Below, in pieces: positions 10,828-21,975 of a DNA stretch of 64,000 nt. The notes under the pieces are model-generated. The model was not told the DNA's origin. It was given only the letters and a program-made list of their open reading frames with translations, and did not search any database. Location: assembly GCF_004366595.1 (NCBI RefSeq), contig NZ_SORE01000005.1, positions 62,001 through 126,000 on the forward strand, written 5' to 3'. A program made the translations under genes and the position numbers. The stretch's first letter is position 1. Each line of letters opens with the position of its first letter. Source of the DNA: Paraburkholderia rhizosphaerae (lineage in GTDB: Bacteria > Pseudomonadota > Gammaproteobacteria > Burkholderiales > Burkholderiaceae).

Positions 10828-12021
10828 CTATAGCTTCGGTCGCTCGACTACGAAGGCCCCGCCGCGGCCGAACACGAGTTCGGCGAACCGTTCGCCGATG
10901 CGGCGATGCGCGCGACCGTCCGGATGAAGTTGGTCCGGAAGCGGCAGATCGGCAAAATCCTGTTGGCCGTACAGGTCAAGTCCGTCGAGATAGTGCAGGT
11001 GCGGATCGTCTGCCGCGCGCTGATGCACGATGCGCCGCAATTCCTTCCGGATGACGGTCAGCGTCAGTTTCCCCGTGGCGCGCCGGGCGGGGTCGCCGGT
11101 CGCGCAAAACCTGACCTTTCCTGTTTTCAGCGCATTTAGATCGAACGCGCCGGGGCCAGGCGTGTCTTCGTGAATCGGGCAGTAGAGCGGCGAAATGACC
11201 AGCAACGGAGTGCGCGGATGACCTTCGCGGATGGTGTCGAGGAAGCCATGCACCGCTGGCGTAAACGCACGCAGACGCATCAAATCCGTATTGACCAGGT
11301 TGATGCCGATTTTCAGGCTGACGAGGTCCGCCGCGGTGTCTCGCATCGCTCGCGCCGTGAAGGGATCGAGTAAAGCACTGCCTCCAAAGCCGAGATTCAT
11401 CAGCTCGACGTTGCCGCGCATTGCGGCAAGCGCGGGCCAGATAGCGGTTGGGCTGTCGCCATTGGACCCCTGGCTGATCGAGCTGCCATGATGTAACCAG
11501 ACTCTTCGACCGTGGTCGGCGTCAGCGCTGATACGGGCGTTGGTACGCAACGCAACGAGCTCGATGATTTCGTTGTGCGGCAGCCATATCTCGACTTTCT
11601 TGTCATGGCCCGGCAGATCGCGGAATTGGACTGTGCCGACCGGACCTGACTGTTTCGAAGCTGTACCGGTGGCCATGTCGATCGTCATGGTGTCTCCGCC
11701 GGCCGCGCTGCACTGGCGGACGAGTTGACCATCGATGAGCAGGTCATACACGCCGGCCGGTCGAGCGGGGACACCAGCGTAGATGTACCGCGTCGGTAGC
11801 ACATCGATTTCAATGGCGGTCGCCTGGGTGCGAAACGTCAGGCGCACTCCCGACGGCTGCGACTCGACCATGGCCAGCTGAGGGTCCGCGCATTGAGCGC
11901 GAGCTCGCGCGGGCAGCCGGTGCGGCATGAGTCCGCGGCCGGTCTGTTCCAACTCGACGGCGCCGCGCAACAGTTCTGGCGAAATGGGCGTAGCGATCCA
12001 GTTCTGCGGGTCGTTCGTCAT
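10828..12021 (-). CDS. SGNH/GDSL-family hydrolase with N-terminal jelly-roll-like domain
   Basis: A 397-residue protein of two parts. The C-terminal half is an SGNH esterase/lipase fold: the nucleophile is in LHHGSSISQGS, the block with the conserved glycine is NLGFGGSALLD, and the catalytic Asp and His are in PDQLHPDGRAH. The N-terminal ~170 residues look like an all-beta carbohydrate-esterase-associated domain (repeated strand patterns, YDLLIDGQLV). No signal peptide is seen, so it acts in the cytoplasm or is exported unusually. The ATG at 12021 is preferred over an in-frame GTG at 12033. It follows maeB on the same strand after 139 bases, probably as a separate unit. Confidence 0.85.
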   Translation of the reverse strand: MTNDPQNWIATPISPELLRGAVELEQTGRGLMPHRLPARARAQCADPQLAMVESQPSGVRLTFRTQATAIEIDVLPTRYIYAGVPARPAGVYDLLIDGQLVRQCSAAGGDTMTIDMATGTASKQSGPVGTVQFRDLPGHDKKVEIWLPHNEIIELVALRTNARISADADHGRRVWLHHGSSISQGSNGDSPTAIWPALAAMRGNVELMNLGFGGSALLDPFTARAMRDTAADLVSLKIGINLVNTDLMRLRAFTPAVHGFLDTIREGHPRTPLLVISPLYCPIHEDTPGPGAFDLNALKTGKVRFCATGDPARRATGKLTLTVIRKELRRIVHQRAADDPHLHYLDGLDLYGQQDFADLPLPDQLHPDGRAHRRIGERFAELVFGRGGAFVVERPKL

Positions 12022-12062
12022 AGGATCGATCACAAGTACGGGGTTGCGATCTTAACAAACCG

Positions 12063-12137
12063 TCCATCGGCCGGTCATGGTCGTTCGTTGCAGCCAACCG
12101 AACGACTCATTGGGACCGAGTCCAGCCGACCGATGGA
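12063..12137. terminator. Nested inverted repeats after maeB
   Basis: Two nested inverted repeats lie between the end of maeB and the start of the SGNH hydrolase gene. The outer arms, 12063-12074 and 12126-12137, match over 12 bases with one mismatch. The inner arms GTCGTTCG (12080-12087) and CGAACGAC (12099-12106) match exactly. The structure could end maeB transcription or act as an operator; there is no T-run to decide. Confidence 0.3.
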
Positions 12138-12160
12138 GGGTCCGCTTGCACAGCCTCGCG

Positions 12161-14464
12161 TCAAGAATCGGCTTGCGCGCGATTCGCTTCGATCACCGTC
12201 AACGCCGCCATATTGATGATTCGCCGCACCGTCGCGCTAGACGTCAGGATGTTCACGGGCGCGTTGACACCCAGCAGGAACGGCCCCACCGCGACGTTAC
12301 CGCCCGCACCGGTCTTGAGCAGGTTGTACGCAATGTTGCCTGAATCCACGTTCGGGCAGACCAGCAGGTTGGCGTCGCCTTTGAGCGGCGAAGTCGGCAG
12401 CACGCGAGCACGGAGTGATTCATCCAGCGCGCAGTCGCCATGCATTTCGCCATCCACTTCCAGCTCCGGCGCGTGCTGCCTGACGAGCTTCAGTGCCTCG
12501 CGCATTTTCGCGCCCGACGCCGCGCCACCTGAGCCGAAATTCGAGCGCGACAGCAACGCGGCTTTCGGTGTCAGGTTCAGCCATTTCATCTGTCTGGCTG
12601 CGCTAATCGTGAACTCGGCGATCTGCTCGGCGCTCGGATCGTCGTTGATGTGGGTATCGACCAGCGCCACCGTGCGCTCGTCGAGCAGCAGAATATTCAT
12701 CGCCGCGTAGGTGTTCGCTCCGGACCGCTTGCCGATCACCTGATCGACAAATCGCAGGTGGTCGTGATAAGCGCCCACCGTACCGCAGATCATGCCGTCG
12801 GCGTCGCCAAGGCGCACCATCATCGCGCCGATCAGGGTCAGCCGGCGGCGCATCTCGACACGCGCCATCTCTTTGGAAATGCCGTCCCGGCACATCAATT
12901 CCCAGTAGGTCGTCCAGTATTGCGGGAAGCGTTCGTCATATTCGGGGTTGGTTACTTCCACGTCCTGGCCGAGCTTGAGCCGCAAGCCGAATCGCTCGAT
13001 GCGCGCGAGCAGCACTTCCGGGCGTCCAACCAGAATCGGTCGCGCCAGCTTTTCATCGACCAGCACTTGCACGGCGCGCAGCACGCGCTCGTCCTCGCCC
13101 TCGGTGAACACGATGCGTGCGTTGCCGCCGTCGCGCACAAGCCGCTTCGCGGTCGAAAACAGCGGCTTCATGAACGCGCCAGAGTGATACACGAACTGGT
13201 GCAACTGCTCGACATAAGCGGCCGGGTCCGGCAGCGGGCGCGTCGCCACGCCGCCTTCCATGGCGGCTTTCGCCACCGCCGGCGCGATCCGGGCAACCAG
13301 GCGTGGGTCAAAAGGCTTGGGTATCAGGTATTGCGGGCCGAATTTCACGTCATAGACACCATACGCGGCCGCGACGACTTCGTTTTGCTCCTCTTCGGCG
13401 AGACCGGCGATTGCATGCACCGCGGCAATTTCCATTTCACGCGTAATCGTTGTCGCGCCGACATCCAATGCGCCGCGGAAGATATACGGGAAGCACAGCA
13501 CGTTGTTGACCTGATTCGGATAGTCCGAGCGCCCCGTCGCGATGACGACATCGTCACGCGTCGCATACGCGAGTTCAGGGAAAATTTCCGGAGTCGGATT
13601 CGCCAGCGCGAGAATCAGGGGACGCGGGCCCATCGCCTTCAGCATGTCGGCGCTGAGAATGCCGCCTACCGATAGGCCAAGGAACACATCCGCACCGCCA
13701 ATCACTTCGGCCAGCTTGCGCGCGTCGGTTTCCTGCGCGAAGCGCGCCTTGTCCGGGTCCATCAGCACGGTTCGGCCTCGGTAAACCACGCCTTCAATGT
13801 CGGTCACCCAGATGTTTTCCACCGGCAGGCCCAGGTCTACCAGCAAGTCGAGGCAGGCCAGTGCCGCCGCGCCCGCACCCGAGGTCACGACCTTGACCTC
13901 CGAGATGGTTTTGCCCACCACTTTCAGGCCGTTGATAAAGGCCGCCGATACCGTGATCGCGGTGCCATGCTGATCGTCATGGAAGACGGGAATCTTCATG
14001 CGCTCGCGCAATTTTCGCTCGACGATGAAGCATTCCGGCGCCTTGATATCTTCGAGATTGATGCCCCCGAACGTCGGTTCGAGGCCGGCGATGATGTCGA
14101 CGAGCTTGTCCGGGTCGGTTTCGTTGATCTCGATGTCGAACACATCGACACCGGCGAACTTCTTGAACAGCACCGCTTTACCTTCCATTACCGGCTTTGA
14201 GGCCAACGGGCCGATGTTGCCTAGGCCCAGCACGGAGGTGCCGTTGGTGATCACGCCGACCAGATTGCCGCGCCCGGTGAACCGATGCGCGAGTGCGGGC
14301 TCCGTTGCAATGGCTTCACAGACGCTGGCGACACCCGGCGTATAAGCGAGCGACAGATCGCGCTGGGTCACGAGAGGCTTGTTGGCCACGACGGAAATTT
14401 TTCCGGGCTTCGGAAACTCGTGATAGTCGAACGCGGCTTGCTGGTCAGTTTGTTTCTGCGTCAT
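12161..14464 (-). CDS. maeB: NADP-dependent malic enzyme (malic-PTA fusion)
   Basis: A 767-residue MaeB-type malic enzyme, converting malate to pyruvate and CO2 with NADP in the cytoplasm to feed biosynthesis. Residues 1-~430 are the malic enzyme domain: [16 protein letters not shown], the metal/substrate segment [11 protein letters not shown] and the nucleotide-binding [17 protein letters not shown]. Residues ~440-760 are a phosphotransacetylase-like domain ([28 protein letters not shown]), which in this family is regulatory, acetyl-CoA being an inhibitor, and has no enzyme activity. The length is normal. A LysR gene is divergent, 136 bases upstream. Confidence 0.96.
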
Positions 14465-14600
14465 GTTGTGCGCCCAGGAGAGTGCGCCGGGCCAGTCCCG
14501 GCGCGAACCATTGACGCGATTCTAGAGAGCCGCGATAGGCGGATGATTTTGTTTTAATATCGCCCCATCAGCTTTACGTAATGGTGGCAGTGGTCCTTCC

Positions 14601-15572
14601 ATGACACTTGAGTCGAACGACGTGGTCAGGCGGCTGAGCGCGCGCCTGAAGATGCGGCATCTGGTGCTGTTGCTGCAAATCCAGCAGCACGGCACGCTGA
14701 CGCGCGTCGCGGAACAGATGGCTAGCAGTCAACCGGCGGTGACGAATGCGTTAGCGGAACTGGAAAGCATGTTCGGCATGCCGCTGTTCGAGCGCTCGCC
14801 GCGCGGCATGACGCCCACCGCTCTCGGAGTCGTGGTGCTCGAAAGGGCCAGGGCGATGATCCACGATCTCGATCATCTGGCGCGCGACATGACGGCCGTC
14901 GCGTCGGGCTATGCGACGCATCTGCACGTCGGCGTCATTCCGTTCATTTCCGGTCAGCTGCTCGCGGCGGCACTGAAGCGACTGCATGCGAGCATGGCGC
15001 AGCGCGTGACGGTGACCATCCACGAAGGAACGAGCGATCAGTTGTTGCCGCAACTGCGGGACCATACGGTAGACATTGTCATCGGGCGGGCGGCCGCGTC
15101 GGTCGATCTGCACAAGGCGAACTTTGAAATCCTGTTCCGGCAGCGCCCGCGGATGATTGCGAGTCGGCGTCTTGCGGCGAAACTTGCGCGCGCGAAGCTC
15201 GACTGGAACCGGCTGGTGACGCTGGACTGGATCCTCGGCGCGCCTCACACGCCTATTAGGGAACAGGTGGCCGACCTGTTTCTCGCGGCGGGAACGACGC
15301 CTCCGGTGCCGGTGGTGGAGAGTTACTCGTCCAAGCTGATCGGCGAAATGATTGCTTCAAGCGAAGATGCGGTGTCGATCGTGCCTTCGGATATCGCGGA
15401 AGAACTGGTTCGAATTGCCGGTGTCGCAATCGTGCCCTATTCGTTCGAATGGACGCTTCCGCCTATTGCGCTGTTTACGCGCGCAGAAGGGCCGCGCTCA
15501 GCGGCGCAGGATCGGTTCGTCGAATCGATACGCCAGCTATGCGTCGAAACCTACGCTGAAACGCGGGACTAG
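14601..15572 (+). CDS. LysR-family transcriptional regulator
   Basis: A 323-residue LysR regulator. The helix-turn-helix is in residues 20-75 (HLVLLLQIQQHGTLTRVAEQ and SQPAVTNALAELESMFGMPL), followed by FERSPRGMTPTALG and an effector domain. The start MTLESNDVVRRLSARLKMRH and motif order resemble the GbpR/CbbR-like subgroup that senses sugars or aromatic compounds. It is divergent from maeB; the intervening sequence holds an A/T-rich block (TTTTGTTTTAATATCG at about 14549) that could carry its promoter. Control of maeB is inferred from position. Confidence 0.92.
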   Translation: MTLESNDVVRRLSARLKMRHLVLLLQIQQHGTLTRVAEQMASSQPAVTNALAELESMFGMPLFERSPRGMTPTALGVVVLERARAMIHDLDHLARDMTAVASGYATHLHVGVIPFISGQLLAAALKRLHASMAQRVTVTIHEGTSDQLLPQLRDHTVDIVIGRAAASVDLHKANFEILFRQRPRMIASRRLAAKLARAKLDWNRLVTLDWILGAPHTPIREQVADLFLAAGTTPPVPVVESYSSKLIGEMIASSEDAVSIVPSDIAEELVRIAGVAIVPYSFEWTLPPIALFTRAEGPRSAAQDRFVESIRQLCVETYAETRD

Positions 15573-15625
15573 GTTCGCCGCACAGCGGGAGTTGCTGCGC
15601 GGCCACCTTTCACCGATCGAATCCC

Positions 15626-16042
15626 TTAGCCGTTGCTGACGGAAATCTTCCACCCTTGGCCGCTACCCTTTTGAAGAATCGCAAGTTCTGAACTGATCGC
15701 TAACGCGGCGGACTCATCTCCGTTTACAGCGACCGGTTGGATACCGTTAATCGGGACGCCGCCGATCGCAAACACAGTCGCCGTCGACGGCGACAGAACC
15801 AGAGGGCAGCTTCCGGCCGCTTTCAACAGGCCAATGTCACCCGCCATGTAGAGAATATTCCCGCTTGCGCTGTCGCGATAAGACAGCGTTGACACGATCG
15901 ACACGCCGGCGCATGCCGAAGTATTCAAATGCCACGCCGTCGCGGTGCTACTTAGCGCGATGACGAAAGATCCACCGCCCGCATCCTTTGCCGACAGATA
16001 CAGATTTGTATTCGGATCCAACAACGTAACTGGAGTAGTCAT
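15626..16042 (-). CDS. Small predicted beta-trefoil/lectin-like protein
   Basis: A 138-residue protein with no family I can name with certainty. It lacks a signal peptide, is poor in charged residues, and seems all-beta: repeated units of the kind TNLYLSAKDAGGGSFVIALS followed by AWHL. These short hydrophobic strands, Gly/Asp turns and an aromatic every ~40 residues recall ricin-type or fascin-type beta-trefoils, which bind sugars. The same kind of unit (RYLAINNADNTYVMAS...W) occurs in the N-terminal half of the lectin encoded divergently at 16487. It shares its ~440-base A/T-rich control region with that lectin gene, suggesting joint expression. Confidence 0.6.
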   Translation of the reverse strand: MTTPVTLLDPNTNLYLSAKDAGGGSFVIALSSTATAWHLNTSACAGVSIVSTLSYRDSASGNILYMAGDIGLLKAAGSCPLVLSPSTATVFAIGGVPINGIQPVAVNGDESAALAISSELAILQKGSGQGWKISVSNG

Positions 16043-16486
16043 CGAATTTTCTCGCTCGAATTGGGATTGGATCTTTCAGTGTTTATGCCATAGGGCTTAT
16101 AAGGGACGCTCTCTGCGCGACATACCCCAGTGGCGGCGCACGGAAAGACAATTCACCATAGTCGAAATCATGCGCTTTAATTTTGAACAATTGTGACGTC
16201 GATGTGTGACGCATCCATGCCGATATTGAATTGATCCTGAATAATTATTTCAGTCGCATTCCTTGAAAACCGATGTCAGTCAATTCATATATATGCATTT
16301 CGCAATGGCCTGTCTTTCGGCGCCATAGTTCACATTTGTTCACAATAAAATGCGCGGCGCTATTTACACTGAGGTGGTTCGGTTCCATTAACACGGGAAA
16401 TCTGTAATACCGGCTGGATGTCGGACCCATTGTTATTGATGTATCGAGCATTTACGACCAGAACATTTCACCTAGTGAGGTCTATT
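16043..16486. promoter_or_regulatory. A/T-rich region between divergent lectin genes
   Basis: This ~440-base stretch is much richer in A/T than the surrounding genes, especially at 16150-16400, and must hold the promoters of both lectin-type genes. A 68-codon frame on the minus strand (16245-16451) has no coding look. The low G/C may signal silencing by an H-NS-like protein or recent acquisition. The sequence GTGAGG, six bases before the TTG at 16487, is the best ribosome site. Confidence 0.45.
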
Positions 16487-17452
16487 TTGGGTAACGTTCT
16501 CAAATATGGCAATAACGTTGCACTCTGCAACGGCCAGGACAATTTCTCGGGTTATTTCCTGTCGCTTATCTGGAAGGGGGTTCAAAATCCCGAAAAATTC
16601 GACAAGCTCTGGACCGAAGTTGCGCAACCCGGTAAAAACTTTGCGTCGGACTACGTTTGGACCATTGTCCCCGCGCCAGGGTCGGCCAAAAAGGTTGGCG
16701 ATCCCGTCTCAAACTTCGACCAGATATGGATGACGATGCAGGACGACGCCGGCGCAACGCGTTACCTTGCGATCAATAACGCCGACAACACGTATGTGAT
16801 GGCGAGCGACAACTCTGTCGCAGCGAATCTCAGAACGTGGGTGATCTCCGGTACGACGGCAGTTGGCGCGAATAATCAGTCATCCGGCCAACTCAAAGAC
16901 CCGTTGGAATACGGGATGTTCATCAATCTGCTCAACAAGTCGCAAGAGCGAACCGTCAACGCGCTGAACGGCGCGAATCAGACGGACGCGTTCAAGCATG
17001 TTCTTCGCACCGCTCCGATCGGTCAGGCGCAGGACATCACGGGGTGGTGGCGGGTCGATAAATCGGTCACGGACAAAGGCGACAACGGAGACAACGGAAA
17101 CGGCGGCGATCCCACCGACGGTTCCTACAACCTGCCGCCCAACATCCGCTTCGCGGTCACGGCAATCGCCAATTCTTCTGCCGAGCAGACCATCCAGATC
17201 TATGTCGACGACAAACTGGTCGCGACATGGAGGGACTGGAGCACGGAGAGCAAGAACACACCGACGCAGGTTCTGCAGTCAGGACGCGGCAAGGTCCAGG
17301 TCAAGGTGTCGGCCAACGGCAAACCGTCGCTGATCGACGGGCGGCATGTCGGGATGGCAGGCAAGACCAACTTCTTCCTGGTCGCAACGGAAGACGGCAC
17401 GGACAACGACTACAACGACTGTCTCGTGGTCATCAACTGGCCGATTGGTTGA
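16487..17452 (+). CDS. Two-domain lectin with LecB/PA-IIL-type C-terminal domain
   Basis: The last ~111 residues are a calcium-dependent LecB/PA-IIL/BC2L lectin domain: NLPPNIRFAVTAIANSS, VQVKVSANGKPS and the Ca-binding end EDGTDNDYND before INWPIG, whose terminal glycine also contacts calcium. Such domains dimerise and bind fucose or mannose with two calcium ions. The N-terminal ~190 residues (YGNNVALCNGQDNFSGYFL onward) resemble beta-trefoil repeats and differ from the TNF-like domain of BC2L-C. A Gly/Asp/Asn-rich linker joins the two. No signal peptide is visible, as in other lectins of this group. The TTG start has the best ribosome site; in-frame ATGs at 16418 and 16439 would add 23 or 16 residues. 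Confidence 0.85.
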   Translation: MGNVLKYGNNVALCNGQDNFSGYFLSLIWKGVQNPEKFDKLWTEVAQPGKNFASDYVWTIVPAPGSAKKVGDPVSNFDQIWMTMQDDAGATRYLAINNADNTYVMASDNSVAANLRTWVISGTTAVGANNQSSGQLKDPLEYGMFINLLNKSQERTVNALNGANQTDAFKHVLRTAPIGQAQDITGWWRVDKSVTDKGDNGDNGNGGDPTDGSYNLPPNIRFAVTAIANSSAEQTIQIYVDDKLVATWRDWSTESKNTPTQVLQSGRGKVQVKVSANGKPSLIDGRHVGMAGKTNFFLVATEDGTDNDYNDCLVVINWPIG

Positions 17453-17689
17453 CGTTGTCTTGTCGGACTCGCGTCAGTCTCGTGTCGCGCACGCGTCGAG
17501 ATGCGCGGGTGTGAATCGGCGGGCGCGTGCCGGGTCGTTGCGCGGCGGGCTCGAACCCGCCGCGCAACGACGTCTCCAGGGGTTTCGCGCCCCGGAAACA
17601 AGAAGGGAAGAAGGCAAAGCCCAGGTCTGACTTTCGGTGGAAGAAATGTACCGGCTTGATCGGCGCGCGCGGGTTCATGCGCCGCAACC
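17453..17689. other. Downstream of lectin, hairpin only
   Basis: No intact gene. The stretch carries a perfect 16-base inverted repeat (listed separately) and a weak second hairpin near 17578-17595. The open frames here have no recognisable content; their apparent length comes from high G/C. Confidence 0.35.
17534..17571. terminator. Perfect 16-bp hairpin after the lectin gene
   Basis: The arms 17534-17549 and 17556-17571 are exact reverse complements over 16 bases (GTCGTTGCGCGGCGGG and its complement) around the six-base loop CTCGAA. It lies about 80 bases after the lectin stop codon and is probably its terminator, although no T-run follows. An extragenic palindrome or insertion scar is the alternative. 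Confidence 0.5.
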
Positions 17690-17842
17690 GTGTTCCAGGG
17701 TGTGCATTTGATCTTCGGTTCCGATGTCGGCAAGCACTGGACCGCAAGCGAAACGCCCGAAACGAAGATCGTGTTCATCGGCAAGCAGTTGCCTGTCGAT
17801 GTCTTCAAGGCGGGGCGCGATAACTGCGTGCTCGCGTCCTGA
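17690..17842 (+). pseudogene. CobW-type GTPase, C-terminal remnant
   Basis: Fifty codons in clear local codon bias end at TGA 17840-17842. The segment ETKIVFIGKQLPVDVFKAG resembles the end of the CobW C-terminal domain, where a strand of the type VFIG plus a short helix closes the fold. The GTPase domain and the rest (some 300 residues) are absent, so this is the 3' scrap of a deleted metallochaperone or YjiA-like gene. Confidence in the family is moderate because only about 40 residues can be compared. Confidence 0.5.
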
Positions 17843-18202
17843 AGCGGCGAAGCACGACAACTGCTTCTGCATCCGCCGCGTTTGGTCACACGAGGCAAGT
17901 CGCGGCGGCATCACCGGGGGCTCTTCATCGCCGACCCGTCCCAAGGGGCGATCTCGCATATCGGCCCTATTCCTGCGGGTCATTCAAAACCTGGGGCCGC
18001 TGCCCCTGCACGCTGAGCCGCCTCGCCCCTATGCCCGGGCAAGGATCTGGCAGCGCGACGAACGGATACGGCCAAATATCGCGAGCGCCGCATCATGCGT
18101 GACCTATTATCAAGAAAGTTGTGAACAGTACGGCATGCCAATGGTCCGCACAGCAACCTGCGAATCGTGTAACGAATCGCAGAAGTTCGTGGAGGGACGG
18201 CG
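17843..18202. other. Upstream region of ppk2
   Basis: About 360 bases with no convincing gene on either strand. Long G/C-driven open frames occur but lack family signatures. The 3' end carries the ribosome site GGAGGGA before the ATG at 18203, and the promoter of ppk2 should lie here. Confidence 0.35.
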
Positions 18203-19150
18203 ATGGTTCACCAGAAAATACTGGACGCGCTGCGGACGTACACCGATCCGTTCCGCATCACGAAGGGCAACGATTTTTTCCTGAAGCATTTCGATCCCGG
18301 CGACACGCTGGGACTCAAAATGGATAAACAGGTGGCGTTGCAACTTCTTCAACGCCATTCGAAATGGCTCGCGATGGAGCAGGAGGTTCTCTACGCACAG
18401 GATTCCTGGTCTGTGCTACTGGTGTTCCAGGCGATGGACGCGGCGGGCAAGGACGGCACGATCAAGCATGTGATGTCGCGCGTCAATCCACAAGGCTGCG
18501 ATGTCGTTTCATTCAAGCAGCCGTCGGATGAGGAGCTCTCGCACGACTTTCTCTGGCGCTATAGCACGAAAGTGCCCGAGCGCGGGCACATCGGCATTTT
18601 CAACCGCTCGTACTATGAAGAGGTGCTCGTGGTTCGCGTGCATCAGCATCTGCTCGATGCGCAGAAGATCCCGCCGGTGCGGATCGGCAAAAACATATGG
18701 AACGAGCGGCTCGCTGACATCGCGCGGTTCGAGGACTATCTGGCGCGCCAGGGCGTGGCCATCGTCAAGTTCTATCTGAACCTGTCGTACGACGAGCAGA
18801 AGAGGCGATTCATGGAACGCCTCGACAATCCCGACAAGCACTGGAAGTTCTCCACAGCCGACGTTCGCGAGCGTCGATACTGGAACGACTATATGCACGC
18901 GTATGAAGAGGCAATCCGCGCAACCGCCTCTGAAGCAGCGCCGTGGTTCGTCGTGCCTGCCGACAACAAGCCTTTCACGCGCCTCGTCGTCGCGGCTGCG
19001 ATCGTCGAGGCCGTCGAAAAGCTCGACCTCGCCTATCCGAAAGTCACGCAGGAGCAGATAAAAGATCTCGCCGCCGCGAGACAGGAACTCAATGCTGAAC
19101 CGATAGATGGTGCGACAGGCGATCGACCAAAGGGTGATCCAGACCATTGA
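18203..19150 (+). CDS. ppk2: Polyphosphate kinase 2 family protein
   Basis: A 315-residue PPK2-family kinase that moves phosphate between polyphosphate and nucleotides. The Walker A motif DAAGKDGTI is at residues 79-87, followed by HVMSRVNPQG; IGIFNRSYYEE forms the Walker B region, and a basic lid (YDEQKRRFMERLDNPDKHWK) follows. The single PPK2 domain and the PQG motif are those of the polyphosphate:nucleotide phosphotransferases that regenerate NTPs from NMP or NDP. GGAGGGA before the ATG supports the start. A P-type ATPase begins 54 bases downstream on the same strand, so the pair may be one operon linking polyphosphate energy to cation transport. Confidence 0.92.
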   Translation: MVHQKILDALRTYTDPFRITKGNDFFLKHFDPGDTLGLKMDKQVALQLLQRHSKWLAMEQEVLYAQDSWSVLLVFQAMDAAGKDGTIKHVMSRVNPQGCDVVSFKQPSDEELSHDFLWRYSTKVPERGHIGIFNRSYYEEVLVVRVHQHLLDAQKIPPVRIGKNIWNERLADIARFEDYLARQGVAIVKFYLNLSYDEQKRRFMERLDNPDKHWKFSTADVRERRYWNDYMHAYEEAIRATASEAAPWFVVPADNKPFTRLVVAAAIVEAVEKLDLAYPKVTQEQIKDLAAARQELNAEPIDGATGDRPKGDPDH

Positions 19151-19203
19151 GACCGGCCCTTGACCCGACATCACTGAAAACGTTGAAACCGGGAGAGACG
19201 AGG

Positions 19204-21975
19204 ATGAGCTCAGCTGAAAGCACGGCTTCTGCAACGGATGCGACGCCTTGGCATGCGATGCCGGCCGGCGAAATCGAGCAGCATTTCAACGTGGATCCCA
19301 CGCGCGGCCTCGATGCGGCCGATGCGACCGGGCGTCTGGAAACCTATGGGCCGAACCGCCTGCCGCAAGGCAAGAAGAAAGGGCCCATCGCACGCTTTCT
19401 CGCACAGATCAACAACATTCTGATCTACGTGCTGCTGGTGGCCGGGTTCATCAAATTCATGTTGGGCCTTTGGCTCGACGGCTCGGTCATCCTCGCCGTC
19501 GTTGTCCTCAACTCGCTGCTCGGCTTCCTGCAGGAAGGACGCGCGGAGAAAGCGCTGGATTCGATTCGCAACATGCTGTCGGCCGAGGCGCGCGTGATGC
19601 GTGGCGCAGACGTGCGCTTCATTCCCGCCGACGAACTCGTTCCAGGCGATATCGTGCTACTGGAATCGGGCGACAGAATCCCTGCGGACATGCGTCTTGT
19701 CGACGCCAGAAACCTGCGGACCGAGGAAGCGGCACTCACGGGCGAATCTGTCCCGGCCGAAAAGAGCACCGCTCCGGTGCCCGCGAAGGCCACGGTCGGC
19801 GACCGCGAGAATATGGCGTTCTGCGGCACGATGGTGTTGTCCGGCCGTGCAACCGGCGTCGTCGTCGCGACCGGCAGCCAAACGGAACTCGGCCGCATCA
19901 ACCAGATGCTCGCCGAGGTCAGCGCGCTCGAGACGCCGCTGCTGCGCCAGATCAAGCGGTTCGGCTACGTGATCACCGCGGTTATCGGCTGCGTGAGCGT
20001 GCTGCTCTTCTCGTGGGGCCATTGGCGCGGCCACATGACCTTCGTCGAACTGTTCCAGGCCATTGTCGGGATTGCGGTATCGGTCATCCCGGAAGGCCTG
20101 CCCGCGCTGATCACCATCACGCTAGCGATTGGCGTGCAGCGCATGGCACAGCGCAACGCGATTATTCGCCGCTTGCCGGCAGTCGAGACATTGGGCGCGG
20201 TGTCGCGTATCTGCTCGGACAAGACGGGCACGCTGACGCTGATGGAGATGATGGTGAGCTCTGTCGTGACGGCGGATGCGGCGTATGCGGTTACCGGCAA
20301 CGGCTACGCGCGCGACGGAGAAGTCAGCGCCGATGGCAAGCCGATCGGTGCTGCGCCGGACGCGCTCAAGCTGATGGGACGCGTGTCGATGTTGTGCAAC
20401 GACGCGGAGCTCTTCGAGGAAGATGGAAAGTGGAAAGTGGAGGGCGACCCGACCGAGGGCGCGCTCTATCCGTTTGCCGCGAAGCTCGGCATGGACCGTG
20501 CGACGGAGGTGGCCGCGGCACCGAGAGTCGACGCGATTCCGTTCGAATCCGAGCACAAATTCATGGCGACGCTAAACCGTTCGGCGGACGGCGAGATGCT
20601 TTTGGTCAAGGGCGCGCCGGAAGTGATCCTTGACCACTGCGACCGGCAGCAGACAGTGCAAGGCCCAGTGCCGCTCAATCGCGACCATTTCGCCGCGGAG
20701 GGCGACCGGCTTGCCGCGCAAGGAGAGCGCGTGCTCGGCCTCGCATGGCTGCCGGACCCGGGCCTGCGTACGGGCGGCCTCGGGCCGCAGGACTTGCCGC
20801 GTAACCTGGTGCTGCTCGGCCTCGTGGGCCTGATGGACCCGCCGCGTAAAGAAGCCATCGACGCCGTGCGCGAATGCCACGGCGGAGGCATCCGCGTCAC
20901 GATGATCACGGGCGATCACAAGATCACCGCAGCGGCGATCGCAAGAATGCTGGGCATCGGCGACGGCAAGACAGCCGTGTCCGGTACCGAGATCGAGGCG
21001 ATGAACGATGCGGCGCTACGGGAATGCGTGCGCGATGTCGATGTGTTTGCGCGCGCGAGCCCGGAGCACAAGCTGCGGCTCGTCAAGGCAATTCAGGCGA
21101 ATCGGCAGATCGTTGCGATGACCGGCGACGGTGTCAACGATGCGCCGGCGCTCAAGAAGGCAGACATCGGCGTTGCGATGGGCATCAAGGGCACCGAGGT
21201 GACGAAAGAGGCTGCGGGGATGATCCTTGCCGACGACAATTTTGCGTCGATCTCCGCGGCAGTGAAGGAGGGACGCACGGTCTATAACAACATCGAGAAG
21301 GCGATGCTCTTCATGTTGCCGACCAATATCGCGCAAGGCGCGGTGATTGCGGTTGCGATCCTGTTCGCGTTCACGCTGCCGATTACCGCGCCGCAGATTT
21401 TGTGGGTGAACATGGTTAGCTCGGTCGCGCTGGGCCTGACCATTTCGTTCGAACCTCACGAGGCAGACGTGATGCAGCGCGCGCCACGTGCGATGGACCG
21501 ACCGCTCGTCACACCCTTTGGCATCTGGCGCATTCTGTTCGTCGGCGCCGCGCTGCTGCTCTATACGCTGGCGACTTTCTTCTGGATGAAGGCGCATGAT
21601 GCCTCGGATCAGATGGCGCGCACCGCCGCGGTCAATGCGATTACGCTAGGCCAGGTGTTCTATCTTCTCAACATCCGGTATCTGATCGATTCGTCGCTGT
21701 CCGTGCGCGCGCATATGGGTAATCGTTACCTCTGGTACGGAATAGCCGCCGTCGTCGTGTTACAGCTTCTGTTCACGTACACGCTACCGTTCAACGTGAT
21801 CTTCAATACGGAGGGTCTGCCGATGTGGGCGTGGGCGTGGCTCATCAGCGGCGGAATCCTGTTTTTCCTCGTGGTGGAGCTTGAGAAGCTTGTTATTCGA
21901 TTGATCCCTGCGATGAGACGGTTTGTGACCGCGCAGCAGGAGGGCGCGGGGTTGCGGAATGATCCGGTGAGGTAA
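19204..21975 (+). CDS. P-type cation-transporting ATPase (PMA1/SERCA-like)
   Basis: A 923-residue P-type ATPase with all catalytic parts: cation ATPase N-domain (PWHAMPAGEIEQHFNVDP), actuator motif LTGESVPAEKS, helix-4 motif VIPEGLPAL, phosphorylated Asp339 in CSDKTGTLT, KGAPE in the nucleotide-binding domain and TGDGVNDAPALKKADIG. Ten membrane segments are expected. PEGLP in helix 4 and the C-terminal helices place it with the type II pumps (calcium, sodium or proton); the ion cannot be decided. The start at 19204 has GGGAGAG upstream; the in-frame ATG-type codon at 19147 would overlap the end of ppk2. Confidence 0.93.
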   Translation: MSSAESTASATDATPWHAMPAGEIEQHFNVDPTRGLDAADATGRLETYGPNRLPQGKKKGPIARFLAQINNILIYVLLVAGFIKFMLGLWLDGSVILAVVVLNSLLGFLQEGRAEKALDSIRNMLSAEARVMRGADVRFIPADELVPGDIVLLESGDRIPADMRLVDARNLRTEEAALTGESVPAEKSTAPVPAKATVGDRENMAFCGTMVLSGRATGVVVATGSQTELGRINQMLAEVSALETPLLRQIKRFGYVITAVIGCVSVLLFSWGHWRGHMTFVELFQAIVGIAVSVIPEGLPALITITLAIGVQRMAQRNAIIRRLPAVETLGAVSRICSDKTGTLTLMEMMVSSVVTADAAYAVTGNGYARDGEVSADGKPIGAAPDALKLMGRVSMLCNDAELFEEDGKWKVEGDPTEGALYPFAAKLGMDRATEVAAAPRVDAIPFESEHKFMATLNRSADGEMLLVKGAPEVILDHCDRQQTVQGPVPLNRDHFAAEGDRLAAQGERVLGLAWLPDPGLRTGGLGPQDLPRNLVLLGLVGLMDPPRKEAIDAVRECHGGGIRVTMITGDHKITAAAIARMLGIGDGKTAVSGTEIEAMNDAALRECVRDVDVFARASPEHKLRLVKAIQANRQIVAMTGDGVNDAPALKKADIGVAMGIKGTEVTKEAAGMILADDNFASISAAVKEGRTVYNNIEKAMLFMLPTNIAQGAVIAVAILFAFTLPITAPQILWVNMVSSVALGLTISFEPHEADVMQRAPRAMDRPLVTPFGIWRILFVGAALLLYTLATFFWMKAHDASDQMARTAAVNAITLGQVFYLLNIRYLIDSSLSVRAHMGNRYLWYGIAAVVVLQLLFTYTLPFNVIFNTEGLPMWAWAWLISGGILFFLVVELEKLVIRLIPAMRRFVTAQQEGAGLRNDPVR

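Follow-up and report, generated by a model that had tools for sequence, protein, structure and literature searches.

The closest described systems to the gene examined here are the BC2L lectins, in which a LecB (PA-IIL) domain may stand by itself, as in BC2L-A, which has no extra domain (PMC3164656), or may follow an additional N-terminal module, as in the superlectins. BC2L-B and BC2L-C are located on the cell surface and are freed from it by mannose, and the TNF-like N-terminal domain of BC2L-C is trimeric and contributes to hexamer assembly (PMC3164656). Lectins encoded by bclACB are regulated by quorum sensing and are needed for biofilm structure (PMC3426421). A 64,000-nucleotide stretch of the Paraburkholderia rhizosphaerae genome (contig NZ_SORE01000005.1, positions 62,001 to 126,000; hereafter the window) carries a lectin gene that is best read as a new N-terminal variant among LecB superlectins of the BC2L kind. 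Its product has an extra domain ahead of LecB, as BC2L superlectins do, and this domain is predicted to fold as a MIR-like beta-trefoil.

A first-pass annotation, made from the letters of the window alone, had recognized a LecB/PA-IIL calcium lectin domain here, and both the domain and the open frame at 16418-17452 (+) that contains it (the longest frame, from ATG 16418, 344 amino acids) were recovered. The Pfam family PF07472 matches the C-terminal 107 residues (237-343 of the 344-residue frame) at 126.2 bits (curated cut-off 21; E value in Table 1). Thirteen distinct PDB sequences match the lectin, LecB being the best (E 3.6e-30), and both the acidic calcium loop and the terminal glycine are identical to those of LecB in the alignment to 1gzt. 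The triad of the specificity loop is Ser-Ser-Ala, with Ser22 as in LecB. LecB is a fucose lectin whose positions 22-24 have been mutated (S22A, S23A, G24N) toward the mannose lectin RS-IIL, and CV-IIL, whose triad is Ser-Ala-Ala, favors fucose but also binds mannose well (PMC1903359). Because the triad compares in this way with those of LecB and CV-IIL, the LecB domain of the window lectin would be expected to prefer fucose and also to bind mannose.

Ahead of this domain the same annotation had described about 190 residues of repeated strand units, and internal repetition is indeed significant in this conserved domain, since none of 100 column shuffles reached the self-alignment score of the N-terminal domain. 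The best AlphaFold2 model (predicted local distance difference test, pLDDT, 80.0) has 12 strands arranged as three four-stranded units, a beta-trefoil, and its best structural matches are of the MIR type (SDF2, inositol trisphosphate (IP3) and ryanodine receptors, and PMT-MIR). Sequence profiles give hints of SDF2 (E 0.014) and of ryanodine receptors (E 0.048-0.25), and one relative (L061) matches PF08709 at E 0.0022 and 17.6 bits, below the curated cut-off of 23. The 197-residue domain of the window has no Pfam match, including to MIR and Ins145_P3_rec. In the MIR domain of Pmt2, sites alpha and beta of the trefoil bind mannose, and over 90% of the proteins of the yeast cell wall carry O-mannose (PMC7759382), which makes a mannosylated target plausible for the lectin by analogy. 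Two sugar specificities, as the first-pass annotation had proposed, are possible.

Neither the BC2L-B nor the BC2L-C type of N-terminal domain accounts for this region. A profile of the new domain (A2) gave E 2 in a 15-sequence test against a copy of BC2L-C (L045, which itself matches 2wq4 at E 4.9e-92), and hhalign assigned a probability of 0.04% to a relation with the N-terminal domain of BC2L-B. An identity of the N-terminal half with either domain was rejected on this basis, in agreement with the earlier annotation; BC2L-D was left out of the comparison. No description of a LecB-trefoil fusion or of a Paraburkholderia LecB lectin was found in the open-licence literature, in so far as it was accessible, which leaves the absence of such a design from the record unproven. 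The accessible part of a chimerolectin review (PMC12355970) mentions BC2LCN just as a fusion tool.

The fusion is narrowly distributed. The full lectin matches 17 of 144 Paraburkholderia genomes, and six of the 144 encode a trefoil-LecB fusion as judged by open frames (G000, G319, G381, G339, G387 and G333). Another, G335, has a borderline trefoil-like N-terminal domain (family profile E 0.0041 in a 15-sequence test), three of the 17 carry an N-terminal domain 71-72% identical to that of BC2L-B, and seven have LecB alone. The N-terminal domain was detected in 14 of 398 genomes of the family, namely its own, ten of genus g25 and three of genus g12, and only in its own genome in a phylum sample of 398. 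Module order also varies: in one g12 protein (L060:1270-2505) LecB precedes the trefoil, and one from g25 (L062:1501-2757) has a long Pro-Ser linker between LecB and trefoil. Three further trefoil-LecB proteins (P0018, P0019 and P0020) form a branch in which the acidic calcium loop of the LecB domain is not kept, and which perhaps no longer represents a classical calcium lectin.

The trefoil could instead be a spacer or oligomerizer that has no ligand of its own, in which case the protein would be a single-specificity LecB lectin of higher valency. Such a role would resemble that of the BC2L-C trimer (PMC3164656). It is also in keeping with the strong variability of the domain, whose identity between the most distant branches is 18-24%, and no conserved sugar-site residues were demonstrated in it, no residue-level superposition having been made. 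Against this stands the occurrence of the domain in another genus without LecB: the readable g25 frames are mostly 220-270 amino acids long and leave no room for a LecB domain, which argues that the domain is useful by itself. We consider a spacing or oligomerizing role alone unlikely. Several of these stand-alone MIR-like proteins of another Burkholderiaceae genus (L049-L056, L059) have, as read by eye, the same ABC-transporter-like or NAD-synthetase-like frames as neighbors.

Divergent from the lectin lies a small gene, here called the companion, which the first-pass annotation had described as having similar repeat units and as sharing an A/T-rich control region with the lectin. The 138-residue frame is present and has relatives, but the resemblance to the N-terminal domain did not hold: profile-profile comparison of the two gave a probability of 0.45%, the companion's self-alignment score was reached by 57 of 100 shuffles, so that no internal repeat was detected, and its AlphaFold2 model has a pLDDT of only 37.3. 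The proposal that both proteins are trefoils thus survives for the lectin, as a prediction, and is unsupported for the companion. The companion has no Pfam match and belongs to a family in which it is itself one of the database proteins counted in Table 1; the two Paraburkholderia genomes that encode it are its own and that of Paraburkholderia edwinii (G319). It was found in four of 299 family genomes, itself included, one of these being a marginal match (E 2.9e-4) inside a 1056-residue frame, and in one of 300 order genomes, which is its own.

Spacer DNA between the two genes (16043-16486) is indeed A/T-rich (56% versus 40% for the window), but it does not appear to be a single shared region. 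Separate blocks of it match the companion locus and the lectin locus of P. edwinii, and the sequence is therefore read as two separately conserved upstream regions that abut at 16205-16237 in this genome. Each block contains an element of the TTCACA-N4-TTCACA type in the same orientation relative to its own gene. The best 21-base match between the blocks (18 of 21) was reached by none of 1000 shuffles and the best 18-base match (15 of 18) by 9 of 1000, both lengths having been picked after the element match was seen. A 21-base pattern with up to three mismatches has no further match in the window, and 100 shuffles gave none.

These data bear on the possibility that the two divergent genes encode an obligate functional pair. 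The two genes are adjacent in the window and have the upstream element in common, and the longest contig listed is 5407 bases for each of two metagenome clusters (P0001, lectin; P0008), a hint compatible with linkage in another strain. In P. edwinii, however, the lectin (C2:341821) and the companion (C1:4276522) are on different contigs, yet the element is kept before both. In another genus, the 12 kb examined at each of two companion relatives (28-30% identical, in G134 and G187) contains no match to the lectin, no companion match was obtained in the remaining MIR-LecB genomes of Paraburkholderia, and the companion occurs in two of 144 genus genomes against six for MIR-LecB. The expected synteny was thus rejected for the genomes searched, and an obligate pair is unlikely. 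What remains of the proposed partnership is the common element, which persists where the genes are unlinked.

A wider scan suggests that this element serves other genes. With a pattern derived from the two sites of the window and those of P. edwinii, and at most one mismatch, 18 sites were found in 11 of the 144 genus genomes, whereas a reversed-pattern control gave 0 in each genome. The lectin and the companion account for two sites each. Four precede autotransporter genes, two of them in P. edwinii (with PF03797) and one each in G331 and G353, where the gene is cut by the locus end and has PATR matches only. Three precede OmpR-family response regulator genes, all with PF00072 and PF00486; one precedes an intact type VI secretion system (T6SS) VipA gene (G377, L090; PF05591 E 1.6e-50), and a related site in G285 (L091) precedes a VipA remnant of about 23 residues. 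Two lie 513-578 bp from genes for secreted phosphoesterase-family proteins that are 89% identical, and three have no clear gene link (G317, beside an OsmC-like frame read by eye; G339; and the second site of G331). Where such sites precede orthologs in related genomes, they do not count as independent occurrences. The third copy in the P. rhizosphaerae genome (C24) is 578 bp from the nearest recognized downstream gene and counts for little by itself, and the P. edwinii ortholog has one too. When two mismatches were allowed in ten genomes, a site was found 357 bp before a YadA-type adhesin gene in G299, and no adhesin-like neighbor was recognized at further sites in G333 and G339. MIR-LecB loci other than those of the window and P. 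edwinii lack the element.

Six-base direct repeats with a ten-base period are typical of OmpR/PhoB-type regulators. The presence of the element upstream of an OmpR-family regulator gene suggests autoregulation, and makes this regulator a candidate for the protein that reads the element. On the best reading, the lectin belongs to an adhesion or contact regulon. Among the genes involved, the two related P. edwinii autotransporters (L094:2820-5822 (-) and L095:789-3758 (+)) start 52-57 bp after the element, and the regulator genes (L085:1586-2317, L089:706-1434 (-) and L092:1586-2314) are orthologs, 87-93% identical, in three of 144 genomes. The T6SS site beside the element in L091 is broken, with the VipA remnant followed by a VgrG-like frame (read by eye). 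That the lectin is an antibacterial or contact protein delivered by T6SS or other machinery, as the VipA sites and the absence of a signal peptide seen by eye on lectin or companion might imply, is very unlikely, given that neither protein has a toxin domain in Pfam and that no T6SS, immunity or effector gene was recognized by eye among the open frames of 12000-21000.

On balance we think it probable, with some reserve, that the gene encodes a chimeric calcium lectin that reaches the surface, has two binding surfaces, is controlled by the element and plays a bridging role. The C-terminal LecB domain would bind fucose- and mannose-type sugars and make the protein oligomeric and multivalent, while the N-terminal trefoil would add a further surface for ligands, of which glycans, mannosylated or other, are the likeliest. 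Although no signal peptide is evident, the protein probably reaches the cell surface like BC2L-B and BC2L-C; the location of those lectins, their release by mannose and the biofilm role of the bclACB products are the grounds on which export and bridging are expected. One domain would grip surface sugars as the other faces outward, so that the protein would form bridges among cells, matrix or a eukaryote, for instance a fungal or plant partner. An activator reading the element probably sets expression of the lectin; copies of this element are also found upstream of the companion and, in related genomes, upstream of autotransporter genes and others with contact functions.

In eukaryotes, MIR-type trefoils are modules of O-mannosylation and of endoplasmic reticulum receptors. 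A bolder scheme, which we regard as doubtful, would recast this module as the outward half of an exported lectin for mannosylated fungal or plant walls, with an OmpR-family regulon acting through TTCACA-N4-TTCACA to turn on lectin, companion and autotransporters together on contact, as an attachment kit of P. edwinii for Aspergillus. Aspergillus calidoustus is the fungus with which P. edwinii was isolated and which it protects (PMC13228013). A lectin role in this partnership is conjecture. The partnership itself offers a concrete association of bacterium and fungus in which a function for element and lectin can be tested.

Table 1. Features of the lectin-companion region, in window coordinates.
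Feature	Position	Strand	Basis and remarks
Chimeric lectin gene	16487..17452	+	Probable TTG start, 321 amino acids; PF07472 E 8.4e-37
Shine-Dalgarno-like GTGAGG before TTG 16487	16475..16480	+	Sequence; identical in L027, TTGAGG in L028
N-terminal MIR-like beta-trefoil domain (predicted), 197 amino acids	16487..17077	+	
Gly/Asp/Asn-rich linker	17078..17125	+	Sequence; relatives differ in linker length and make
LecB/PA-IIL domain	17126..17446	+	PF07472 and alignment to LecB 1gzt; acidic loop EDGTDNDYND, NSSA loop and C-terminal Gly kept
GC-rich near-perfect inverted repeat (hairpin)	17534..17571	.	3' of lectin; sequence; conserved in L027 / G319
Companion gene, 138 amino acids, orphan family	15626..16042	-	8 database proteins; 2/144 genus genomes
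Companion's own upstream block	16043..16204	-	blastn match of 15613-16204 to G319 C1, 79.9%
Lectin's own upstream block	16238..16486	+	blastn match of 16238-17570 to G319 C2, 83.9%
Element TTCACATTTGTTCACAAT upstream of lectin	16329..16346	+	TTCACA-N4-TTCACA type; no match in 100 shuffles
Element GTCACAATTGTTCAAAAT upstream of companion	16180..16197	-	18/21 bases in common with lectin copy

The lectin more likely starts at TTG 16487, and comprises 321 rather than 344 amino acids, because its relatives align from a common M/L-G-N point, a GAGG motif with identical six-base spacing precedes the TTG in the window, L027 and L028, and ATG 16418 is not conserved in L027. In L028 a stop codon interrupts the frame about ten codons upstream of the TTG. 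Contrary to this assignment, P0001, a close relative, extends upstream of the M/L-G-N point. The public annotation of the P. edwinii lectin (P0021) starts inside the N-terminal domain, giving 172 amino acids and missing the domain's start.

Downstream of the lectin, the inverted repeat was not called a terminator by a pattern scan, and it was rejected as a dispersed repeat since its own genome holds only this copy at E <= 0.001. Consensus scans returned one promoter-like site (1.3 expected) and five terminator-like sites (2.6 expected, sd 1.7), none clearly beyond chance. The flank appears variable: of 26 genomes searched, that of the window included, 14 have DNA matching at least 85% of the neighboring LysR gene and two (the window's own and G306) match the PPK2 gene over its full length, so that the PPK2 flank looks accessory. 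PPK2-like and P-type-ATPase-like frames were read by eye at 18203-21975. Transport of the genes as phage or plasmid cargo was rejected: tblastn of the N-terminal domain found no match in the phage collection, nor did tblastn of the companion in the plasmid collection. Viral contig scans with the lectin and with the companion alignment yielded no relative, and the whole lectin matched plasmids only through its LecB part (32% of the query, four Burkholderia records). Elsewhere in the genus, a gene of G387 (L030:5904-6686) joins LecB to another domain with weak matches to FRG1 (E 0.0028) and fascin (E 0.015), both below cut-off; this second domain is trefoil-like by reading, and the gene adjoins a MIR-LecB gene and recombinase/transposase-like frames.

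Set beside the systems already described, the lectin is most like the superlectins. BC2L-C of Burkholderia cenocepacia has the same plan of a C-terminal LecB domain, a linker and an extra N-terminal domain, although that domain is TNF-like (PMC3164656) rather than a predicted trefoil, and BC2L-B likewise combines LecB with an N-terminal domain of no known similarity (PMC3426421). LecB, RS-IIL and CV-IIL resemble its C-terminal domain, calcium loop included, but are single-domain proteins with the triads Ser-Ser-Gly, Ala-Ala-Asn and Ser-Ala-Ala, respectively, in place of Ser-Ser-Ala. The trefoils of SDF2, PMT-MIR and the IP3 and ryanodine receptor N-terminal domains are 8-16% identical to the window domain, which differs from them in being bacterial, in being joined to a lectin and in having no Pfam MIR match. 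The shared element offers a route toward a regulator of adhesion genes, and a bacterial MIR-like module is now available for tests of mannose binding. Burkholderiaceae thus repeatedly swap modules onto LecB, in reverse order as well, and the window lectin adds another type of N-terminal module to those of superlectins and their kin, besides none, TNF-like and the BC2L-B type.
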